Both the position numbers and the translations under genes were made by a program. Shown one piece after another: positions 28,770 to 43,557 of a stretch of DNA of 64,000 nucleotides (the stretch's first letter is position 1; the number at the start of each line of letters is the position of its first letter). Under the pieces are notes generated by a model. That model had not been told where the DNA came from and searched no databases. It was given only the letters and a program-made list of their open reading frames with translations. Origin of the DNA: Litoditis marina (taxonomy: Eukaryota; Nematoda; Chromadorea; Rhabditida; Rhabditidae); the NCBI GenBank assembly GCA_964036275.1, contig OZ038440.1, forward strand, positions 1,612,001-1,676,000, written 5' to 3'.

Positions 28770-31700
28770 ATGGGAAATTCCGGATCTTCCGTAGACTCCT
28801 CCCTGTCCCGTTCTGGTTCAGTTGATCCCAGAAGAAATCAATCTCAATCCCCAATAACACACCGAAGGACGGGCAGTTTGAGGTGAGATTTCGAAATGCG
28901 TTTCCGCGCAATACACTCACCGCACAATCTAGGGAATTGTGTGAGCCTCGTTAGCTCAGCTGGTAGAGCGTTGGACTTTTAATCCAACGGTCAGGGGTTC
29001 GAGTCCCCTACGGGGCTTAAGTTTTGATTTGCACAATCAAAAATACTTCTCTTTAAACATTCTCTTATGTTAACAGGTGTAGACAAAATTTTATGAAAAA
29101 GTCTACTATAAGAAATAGGTGTACTATCTAAAAAAAAAGTACTAAAAGTGTGTTATCATGGGCTAAAAACGATATCAATGGTTCTCTACAACTTTTCTAA
29201 ATCAATACATAGTATATTTGTTTTCCAGGCGAACGACAGAGCAAATGCCGGGAAAACCATTCCGTAGATCAAAAACATGTCGAACGAAAGACAAGTGAGT
29301 TTTTCCGCTAGGAATTGTGAACTACACTGAATTTATGCACTCATTGTTCAGCTCTCTGGTTCTCTTATTTTACGCAAATTCTTAGTTTGTGCACTTCAAT
29401 TCTATATCAAAAACGTTAGGTGTCGTAAAGTTGAAACATCGAAACATCAAATCTTCTCGGAAACTTTAACTCACTGAAACCTCTATCAAAAAATGTAAGT
29501 TTATTACTTTCAAAAATTTTGTGGTCAAAAACTGTGATGACCGTTCCAAATTCTAGATTGCTCGACTTTTGGAAAATTGAAAATCATTTTTTGATATTTT
29601 CCAGTCAATCAGTGTCTATAGCCACCCTACTCTTGGAAAAGTGAGCTTCGTTTGAACTCTTCTCAAATAACCAAGTTCTAACCTCGAATGTGTTCTAACC
29701 ATACCAAACTAATCCGTTGATAAAAACGTTGACCTAATTTTAGTACTTCTTTTCTCTCTGCTTCGAAAACATCAAATACAAAGATGCAAAAAAAACATGA
29801 AACAGTGAGAATATGATATTGTAGGTGGAACTTATTTCAACGTTCAGAAACGCGAGAAAGGCAATCTGTATGACGACTGGACTGACACTTCACCAGAAAG
29901 CTGTACTTACCAGAAAATGGAACAGGATGGATCGAGGTTTGTTTGATCTCCAAATTGGAAGTTACACGCCATAGTTCATATATTCAATCACACAAATTTT
30001 AATGCCCATAACTGGTCACGTGGTCACTGTTCAAAAGCTAGAGATTTCACCCCAGAAAATGTTCAGTAAACCAAGGGCATTACTGTTGCAGGTACCGTAT
30101 ACGAGATTGGTCGTTTGATGTTCGAGAACGTATTCGTTGAAAATCCACAGTATCTGAGCTACCTTGACCTACGAGATGAACCAAATTGGCTGAATCATAT
30201 CAACTTCAAGATTCATGTTCAAGTGAGTACAATATTGGCTTTTTTCTGGCTGTGAGAACATCATACAATTGTATTTTTTTTGTTTTTTTTTTCATGCGCC
30301 CATAGAGTATTAAGATTATTAAGATATGTAGAAAGATGCTTCGGAGGTGGCAAACCTCTGTTTGTTTTCTCAGAAGCTGTTGACCTTTTCCAACAGCGTA
30401 AATCGAGTGAAACAGTATGTTGCCGGATTTTCTTTGTCGCCTACTATGGCGTTCTCATCCTTCAAAGCGAGGCTACACCATGTATGTTTCCCTTGGTTTA
30501 TAATTCTATCCCGTTGCTTTTTTCGGTCGAACTTCGTGGATTTCTGCTAGTAATGAGATCAAACTACAACAAAAATTCGGTTACTTCCAATACCACTTCA
30601 TCAATCCCTCTCTGAGTACTTCAGTTCAGAAACTAAGGTTCACGAGTGGGGCGTTGTTATGTGATAGTCGATCACCGTGGCCTTATAGGCCCCGAGGGTA
30701 TCCTTGGGTCGGCGATTTATTCTCGCCTGAATTGCGGCATTCAATCTGTTTTGTGAAGGAGGAGAAAAGCCGTCTATCCAACTTCTACTTCCGAGCGAAA
30801 TCGAAGAAAACTAACACCTAATCGATGATGTGAACAAACAACAATAACCAAATTTGATGTATTCTATGAGTGAAAAGTTGATTTACTCAAAACACTGTTA
30901 AAGTTTCACTTAAGTTTACACTTATTGTTTGGGCAAGTATGAAAAAAAACTTGACAACAAGTGAACCTACTTGGAGATGTATACTTGGAGTTTTCTTGTA
31001 AATAGCAAATATTTTTAACCTTATGGCTTTTCAGAGATTCAACACCGCCCTAACTGAGGTCATGCGAAGGCTGCGGGAACCCTCGGGAGCCTGCGATATA
31101 TTACGGTTAGTTTGCAATATACTACGGTTAAGTTCTACTATTTTAAATTCTTTCATCTTGTATTTTCATGATCTAGATCTCACTTTATCGAAAACCCTCT
31201 TGTAACATGCATGGAAAAGTGAACGCAAGGTGCAAAAGCACGGAATTCTGATGCCAATTTGAAAACAAATTTCAAATTTCAAAAAAAAGAAAACAAATTT
31301 TTTTGCTTCACCACTTTCGAATGTTCCAAAACAAAAACTCTTCCATACATACTTTAATTCGATATTATTATATATATTCACACCTTTGTAGTGACTTTGG
31401 CGCCGGCTACGCGACCAACTCAAAGAGAGTCTCTGCGATTTACTTTGAACGACTGGCCAATGCCCTAAACCGAGCTGCAGCCGAACTACAGGAAGGAGAC
31501 CATCTGCAAGTTGAGGTCAGAATTCAGAAAATGTTAAACGAAAGGGAAAAATGGATTAAAAAAAGTTCGATTCCGAGAAACAGCACTTCCACGGTGGTTA
31601 AATTTGGAAGTTTCATGAACTATGTTACCAGACACAACTATGTTCAAAAATTGATCACAGATGAGAAGTGATCAAATATGCCTTCTATCATACAAGGTTT

Positions 31701-33504
31701 TCATTGCACCGTCCGCCATACAGTTTATTATCGGAAAAAGTCTTTCACACGTTCTTGCAGTTGTTCTCGGAATTCCGACAGAGCGTATTTCTAATTCAAT
31801 TTTTTATTCCAGAAAACAGGCAGCTGCAACGAGACATGTACAGAGACGACCGTTTCGAGCGAGTGGGAGAACAGTAATATGGGATCATCAGTGAGTGAAT
31901 AAGATACAAACGTATTCCATATCATAACTTCTTGAAAATCATGTTATCAAAAATGAGAATAGAAGCATTTATTGAACCTTCTGTCTCGCAATATTGTAAG
32001 AAATGCATGAGACCTCAAATGAACAGCGAAAGGATCAAAAAGAAAGGGAAGGAGGTCGGACAAATTGTAGTCTGTTCCGCATCGATAAGAAAGAAGTCTA
32101 GAATTTTTTTGCGATTGCTAACATTACAACATATTATATTGAACAAAAACAGAATAAGATATTTGAATTCCAGCAAACGCTGTCCGACTGTTCCTCTCTG
32201 CGCACCGTGAAGTCCGCGTCGCGCGTATCCGAGGGGTCGCGTCCGGGCGCCATTCTGACACGGAACAGCGAGTCCCAGATGGAAACCCTCCAGGAAGAAG
32301 TGAAGACCAGCAACAATGAATCCTGCGAAACACATTCTCACAATGAAAAAGAGAAGGTGAGTAACATACCGGTTTTAACGTCAACTGATTCACGTTGTGA
32401 TCATGTACTCGTCATATTTACAAGGTTCTCATTACAGAACTTATTCGAAATAGTCCAGTTGGATTCCTAATCACAACTTTGACAACGCTCTAGTCACACC
32501 TACATTTCACCTTACACAAACCAAAACATACACAGCCAACTTTGTTCGGGCAGAAATACAGCCAGAAAATTTCCAGAAATGTCATAACATGAACATTTTT
32601 TAGAAAGAAGACAAATCACAACACAGCGATGGATCCTGCAGTGCACACAGCCACGGAGACAAGGTAGGCAAAATCAAACACTATAGAACGGAAAAACTAA
32701 CAAAACAACTGCGCGACTTCACATATTAGCAGACGTAACAGACGTAGATTAATGAACGAAACCCTACCGATCACTTGAAATCTGTTCTATTCTGTTTCTT
32801 TCAGTACACTTGTATTTACTAAAAGCACAGTTCTGTGATAATTGTAGTTTCCTGATCAGTAACTTTCTTTTTCAGAGTCTTTGTCCTATCACCGCCGAAG
32901 CTTGGATCGTTCTGTCAGCTTTTCTTGCGAACCAGGTATGTTGCCCCAATCTCAACTATTAAACTGCGATTTACTGCGAACATCATATAAAAAAGAAAAA
33001 GCAAACTCGCTCTTTGTTTACTATGTTATCCGACCATTCCCAAACTAGCACTAAAACAACAGCCAGTCATATCAACTACAAACACAAAGCAGTACATGCT
33101 CAGTTTCGCTCTACCCTTCCCGATATGAATGAACATAAAACAAACATACGTTGAAGAGAACGTTGAACGGTTCGAACCGCCTGGAACCGTCTAGTTCATA
33201 TCGAAACTCACGTTATATTTGCCCAGACATGCATTTGACCTACCCAAAAGAGGAATTTAAACTATTGTTTTAAGAATAAGAATATTTATTGATACCTGTG
33301 ATGCAAATAAAAATGATGAGTATTCAAAAACCCGAATGAACCCAAGAAAGACAGTTTTCTAAACTAGGTTTGTTCCAGATCAAGCTCGGCTATGAGCTGG
33401 AGCGGGTGCTGAAGTCTGAGATGGATAAACTGGGACTGGACTGTCTCATCGCCCCCTCCTCCACACTAGACTCGGACATGCGGAAACGAGCTGTACATGC
33501 GTAG
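28770..33504 (+). CDS. N-myristoylatable globin with a large G-H insertion and no proximal His
   Basis: Twelve exons: 28770-28882, 29229-29294, 29605-29640, 29848-29936, 30092-30222, 31035-31105, 31392-31515, 31813-31890, 32174-32356, 32604-32663, 32876-32935, 33379-33504. They give 378 aa in a continuous frame. The N-terminus MGNSGSS fits N-myristoylation (Gly2, Ser6), so membrane attachment is likely; a Ser/Arg-rich leader follows to about residue 82. The globin fold runs from about 83 (A-helix Trp96, C2 Pro120, E7 His143 followed by TAL). The F-helix reads GAGYATNSK, with Tyr175 where the haem-ligating F8 His belongs, and CD1 is Leu126, not Phe. After helix G (about 182-202) comes a 107-residue insert (211-317), then helix H (ITAEAWIVLSAFLANQ). 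Worm globins are often neuronal and membrane-bound; function here is unknown. An AATAAA lies at 33686-33691. The 36-bp third exon is in frame and optional. Confidence 0.85.
28945..29017 (+). tRNA. tRNA-Lys (anticodon TTT)
   Basis: A complete 73-nt cloverleaf. The acceptor stem GCCTCGT pairs with ACGGGGC (one G-U), the D arm is GCTCAGCTGGTAGAGC, the anticodon stem TTGGA/TCCAA has loop CTTTTAA (TTT at 28978-28980), and the T arm is AGGGGTTCGAGTCCCCT. A TTTT terminator follows at 29022-29025. It has no intron and lies on the sense strand inside intron 1 of the globin gene. Confidence 0.97.
30480..30570. mobile_element. Short foldback element, degenerate left arm
   Basis: The right end GAGATCAAACTACAAC and the inner CCCGTTGC plus CGGTCGAACTTCGTGG match the GTAGTTTGATC family; the left arm is poorly preserved. 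It lies in intron 5 of the globin gene. Confidence 0.55.

Positions 33505-34448: not shown

Positions 34449-43557
<9,109 letters not shown>

Follow-up and report, generated by a model that had tools for sequence, protein, structure and literature searches.

A nematode orthogroup of predicted globin-fold proteins with a long insert between helices G and H

Organization of the gene

The stretch of Litoditis marina DNA that was analysed (contig OZ038440.1 of assembly GCA_964036275.1, 261.8 megabases in total; positions 1,612,001 to 1,676,000), here called the window, is 64,000 nucleotides long. It holds a predicted plus-strand gene of 11 exons (28770-33504) whose 366-amino-acid product has a globin fold. 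Between the exon for helix G and the exon for helix H, three stop-free exons add 107 residues in the turn between these helices (GH insert). An earlier note on this DNA had placed the end of helices A to G at 31515 and the resumption of helix H at 32876, with exons of 78, 183 and 60 base pairs (bp), in phase 0 at both ends, in between. These positions were reproduced, both parts lay in the same gene, and the orthologues described below agreed. The reading frame is preserved, as had been pointed out, when any or all of the three exons are skipped. The gene model extends farther 5' than the note implied, with exon 1 at 28770 and exon 2 at 29229. Exon 6 closes in phase 0 (GAG followed by gtcagaat), and phase 0 was found in all five introns from exon 6 onward; it is the commonest intron phase in Caenorhabditis elegans globin genes (55%; PMC2228317, figure 4 legend).

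Table 1. Exons of the predicted globin-fold gene, in positions of the window
Feature	Positions	Strand	Description
Exon 1	28770..28882	+	Protein start (MGNSGSSVDSS...), myristoylation-like N-terminus, Ser-rich tail; MGN aligned with orthologues
Exon 2	29229..29294	+	Basic tail, FRRSKTCR
Exon 3	29848..29936	+	Pre-A region and helix A (TGLTLHQKAVLTRKWNRMDRG); helix positions from the predicted model of orthologue P0002
Exon 4	30092..30222	+	Helices B and C, start of E; distal His E7 (NFKIHVQ)
Exon 5	31035..31105	+	Remainder of helix E, beginning of F
Exon 6	31392..31515	+	Helix F with Tyr at proximal position F8 (DFGAGY), helix G
Insert exon 1	31813..31890	+	78 bp, 26 residues, phase 0/0, weak conservation
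Insert exon 2	32174..32356	+	183 bp, 61 residues, phase 0/0; motif TRNSESQMETLQEE, common to some orthologues
Insert exon 3	32604..32663	+	60 bp, 20 residues, phase 0/0; end bears Cys/His (SCSAHSHGDK)
Exon 10	32876..32935	+	Conserved CPIT, first portion of helix H
Exon 11	33379..33504	+	Remaining helix H, C-terminal tail, stop

Orthologues and conservation of the insert

Protein databases were searched with a 323-residue query (26 proteins), with a profile of 14 sequences (26 proteins) and with a profile of the core only (17 proteins). This gave 35 distinct proteins, or 36 sequences with that of the window, and all 30 proteins with a name came from nematodes. The nearest relatives, from Auanema sp. 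JU1783 and Heterorhabditis bacteriophora, were 64% and 60% identical over 89% and 94% of the query, respectively. The GH junction was crossed by 27 of the 36 sequences (26 proteins and the window), the other nine being fragments or ending early. An insert of 57 to 122 residues, a GH extension of the kind that characterizes GLB-17 and GLB-21 among nematode globins, was found at the junction in all 27; the shortest, of 57 residues, was a gene model without the first insert segment. The earlier note was thus right about some 107 polar residues in the GH turn of a globin fold. The helical fold from A to H, by which members of the globin superfamily are recognized, was present, and AlphaFold models of two orthologues predicted a globin fold whose GH loop lacks structure. 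In a Pfam globin scan of six core sequences all six matched at an expect value (E) of up to 1, the best at 1.8e-5. Judged from these comparisons, the gene is a member of a nematode orthogroup of globin-fold proteins with a long GH insert, conserved in several nematode groups, and the GH turn evidently tolerates very large insertions. Two other loci of the L. marina genome (L001 and L002, on contigs C16 and C1) exceeded the Pfam globin cut-off.

N-terminus

The predicted protein begins with MGNSGSS, which resembles a myristoylation signal. The pattern MGNxxS occurred in 21 of the 36 sequences and began at residue 1 in 17 of them; the remaining 15 were partial models or fragments without the N-terminal end. 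The gene product is probably N-myristoylated. The MGN start was shared with orthologues, together with a Ser/Arg-rich tail (28770-28882). Myristoylation has been tested experimentally for GLB-26 (PMC3520999) and predicted for GLB-6, GLB-11, GLB-17 and GLB-20 (PMC3106018).

Heme pocket

The proximal position F8 was occupied by Tyr in all 29 sequences that covered helix F. At the distal position E7, His was present in all 27 sequences that matched the flanking pattern, and also in P0031 and P0032, which the pattern missed because they end there. In seven of seven displayed alignments a His of the solved globin (GLB-6, cytoglobin, lamprey hemoglobin and others), which we take to be the proximal F8 His, aligned to the family Tyr in DFGxxY. 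Heme-binding C. elegans globins are recognized by a proximal F8 His, which was absent here, and by a distal His or Gln at E7, which was present. At what we presume to be CD1, the residue of the window was aliphatic in the cytoglobin and GLB-6 alignments, which pick different columns. A Phe at CD1, a further mark of these globins, is missing in six of the 33 described from C. elegans (PMC2228317).

Ferric heme can be ligated by Tyr in other proteins. In the hemoglobin M variants, for example, an F8 Tyr stands beside a distal His, as it does here, although these are rare human mutations and the Tyr of this family is a fixed trait. With F8 Tyr and E7 His, binding of ferric heme seems possible from the residues present, and carriage of oxygen unlikely.

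It is also conceivable, though we think it rather unlikely, that the fold is a heme-free scaffold, in which the F8 Tyr has ended heme binding and the MGN start and the loop form a membrane adaptor. The invariance of the Tyr (29/29) fits such a scaffold, but the E7 His retained in all 27 sequences would be needless for it, and Tyr does ligate ferric heme elsewhere. In its favour, the loss of F8 His in T19C4.5 (to Asn) was held to preclude proper heme binding (PMC2228317, section 6). The 33 C. elegans globins are reported to display F8 His (PMC2228317, section 6; PMC3106018).

Splicing of the insert

The earlier note had suggested that the gene could yield an expanded or a compact globin, depending on whether the three phase-0 exons are included. 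Survival of the frame on skipping all three would allow this, and the donor of insert exon 3 is among the weaker ones of the gene. In addition, strongylid gene models differ in frame within the insert, with the first segment absent or extra pieces present, and Heterorhabditis P0002 aligns only four residues to insert exon 1. The compact form, however, was absent from all 27 spanning sequences, although its length of about 259 amino acids fell within the size limits of the three protein searches. As most genes are represented in databases by a single predicted form and isoforms are rarely listed in full, this absence is weak evidence.

The splice sites of the insert exons were ordinary. Their acceptors matched a simple consensus at 6, 6 and 7 of 7 positions (other exons, 5-7) and their donors at 6, 6 and 4 of 6 (other exons, 4-6); the weaker donor (4/6) of insert exon 3 was also seen in exons 3 and 6, and apart from it the insert exons matched the consensus like the other exons. 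Furthermore, P0018, a Caenorhabditis-like protein of 251 amino acids whose contig measures 978 bp, extends from helix B as far as the C-terminus and is unbroken across the insert. Because the contig of P0034, which is also Caenorhabditis-like, appears to continue into an intron past HVQ, P0018 probably derives from a spliced transcript. Taken together, a splice switch appears improbable. Since the relatives carry the same features, the GH insert seems to be a permanent component of the protein and not a proven switch.

Sequence of the insert exons

Between the window and 13 orthologues, the globin exons showed high identity and the insert exons low identity. Compared with Auanema, 39 of 43 residues were identical in exon 4 and 20 of 20 in exon 10, while the insert exons shared 3 of 21, 20 of 45 and 6 of 20. 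Nevertheless, 10 of the 24 orthologue inserts compared resembled the insert of the window more closely than any of 500 shuffles did, with the match centred on TRNSESQMETLQEE. By these comparisons the insert is fast evolving yet non-random. The middle insert exon bears a Ser/Arg motif, SRxSxS, common to part of the orthologues. A Cys-Pro at the end of the loop was conserved in all 21 sequences of the alignment, and the pattern C-x(0-3)-H-x(3-12)-CP occurred in 16 of the 27 spanning sequences, against an expectation of 1.1 in shuffled sequences, and was missing from 11. As this pattern was chosen after inspection and the sequences are related, its enrichment is to be taken as a lead. It might indicate that these nematode proteins form a class of redox or heme/metal sensors anchored at the membrane, with a permanent F8 Tyr, in which the Cys/His loop would signal changes in the heme pocket or bind metal and phosphorylation of SRxSxS would serve as relay; we consider this a long shot.

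The insert exons had a G+C content of 0.49-0.56, and introns of the first gene model one of 0.30-0.39. When random sequences were drawn from the single-base composition of four neighbouring introns (20000 trials per length), a stop-free frame arose in 15%, 1% and 23% of the trials for lengths of 78, 183 and 60 bp, so the open frames alone are modest evidence of coding. The insert at the same place in the orthologous proteins confirmed the three predicted exons as coding and as part of one gene with helix H. That helices A to G stop at 31515 and 32876-33504 belongs to an adjacent gene, or that the model was mis-joined, can be dismissed: the four introns that separate the two parts are the sole point in favour, but orthologous proteins of many species hold A to G and H in order, and helix H completes the globin fold in predicted models.

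Comparison with known globins

The earlier note knew of no globin family defined by such a GH insert. Here it was only partly right, as GH extensions of 17-40 amino acids occur in six C. elegans globins; the present inserts are nevertheless larger than any of these, none in Table 1 of PMC2228317 exceeding 40 amino acids. GLB-17 (F49E2.4) and GLB-21 (R102.9) have interhelical GH extensions like the present protein, compared here by published description and irrespective of orthology. Their extensions measure 40 and 32 amino acids in totals of 216 and 196, and both have F8 His, in contrast to 107 residues in 366 and F8 Tyr here. GLB-17 is, moreover, predicted to be myristoylated and to have a palmitoylation site (PMC2228317; PMC3106018), which may be set beside the MGN start. 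GLB-26 (T22C1.2) is described in PMC3520999 and PMC3106018 as an N-myristoylated, membrane-located nematode globin that does not bind oxygen reversibly; in the present protein myristoylation is predicted from sequence alone. Unlike it, GLB-26 has 183 amino acids, His-Fe-His ligation and no GH extension in Table 1 of PMC2228317. The heme domain of GLB-6 (C18C4.9; PDB 3mvc) places its His on the family Tyr, and GLB-6 also differs in having no GH extension in that table. The GH extension itself is thus a known trait of nematode globins; what is new, as far as the predicted protein goes, is an insert of this size in combination with the invariant F8 Tyr and the MGN start. F8 His is the defining trait of the published C. 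elegans catalogue, and the GH extensions listed there reach at most 40 amino acids (PMC2228317); because of its F8 Tyr and longer insert the orthogroup fits none of the 33 globins as described and falls outside it.

Proposed function

We lean towards the interpretation that the orthogroup comprises probably N-myristoylated membrane proteins with an F8-Tyr globin fold and a constitutive, disordered, regulatory GH loop. The protein would be anchored at the membrane and would not serve as an oxygen carrier. Ferric heme might be held by the E7-His/F8-Tyr pair, or heme might be lacking. The loop would be a constant tether from helix G to helix H and not a cassette that splicing includes or omits; it could act through phosphorylation or through binding of a partner or metal, with SRxSxS as a candidate kinase or partner site.

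Several results weigh against this interpretation. MGNxxS was internal in four of the 21 models, which have extra upstream sequence. The window scored 12.9-14.5 bits against Pfam PF00042, below the cut-off of 22. Fourteen of the 24 orthologue inserts, among them those of strongylids, Pristionchus, Mesorhabditis and P0018, failed to beat all shuffles, which leaves the insert motif established for part of the orthologues. Among strongylids, whose insert differences rest on gene predictions, Haemonchus placei P0010 and Angiostrongylus cantonensis P0019 lacked the first insert segment of H. contortus P0009 and A. cantonensis P0014. P0010, P0025, P0026 and Necator P0029 had 12-13 extra residues near the end of the insert, which were absent from Necator P0012, and P0019 had a longer, different extra piece. 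The omitted first segment (two models) and the extra pieces (five models) could reflect alternative splicing.

The orthogroup makes it possible to test by genetics how a globin fold functions once the proximal histidine is gone.

Further observations

The extra in-frame piece near the insert end (GQLYSLIRPNRAE-like) was alike in four strongylid species, which would fit the use of an alternative donor. A possible further gene lies about 950 bases downstream of the globin gene on the same strand (34449-35045, +); its open frame 34713-35045, one of 10 frames scanned of the 23 listed in the window, gave no Pfam match at E 0.01. A transfer RNA gene for Lys (anticodon TTT; 28944-29018, +) is located within the first intron of the predicted globin gene and has the same orientation.
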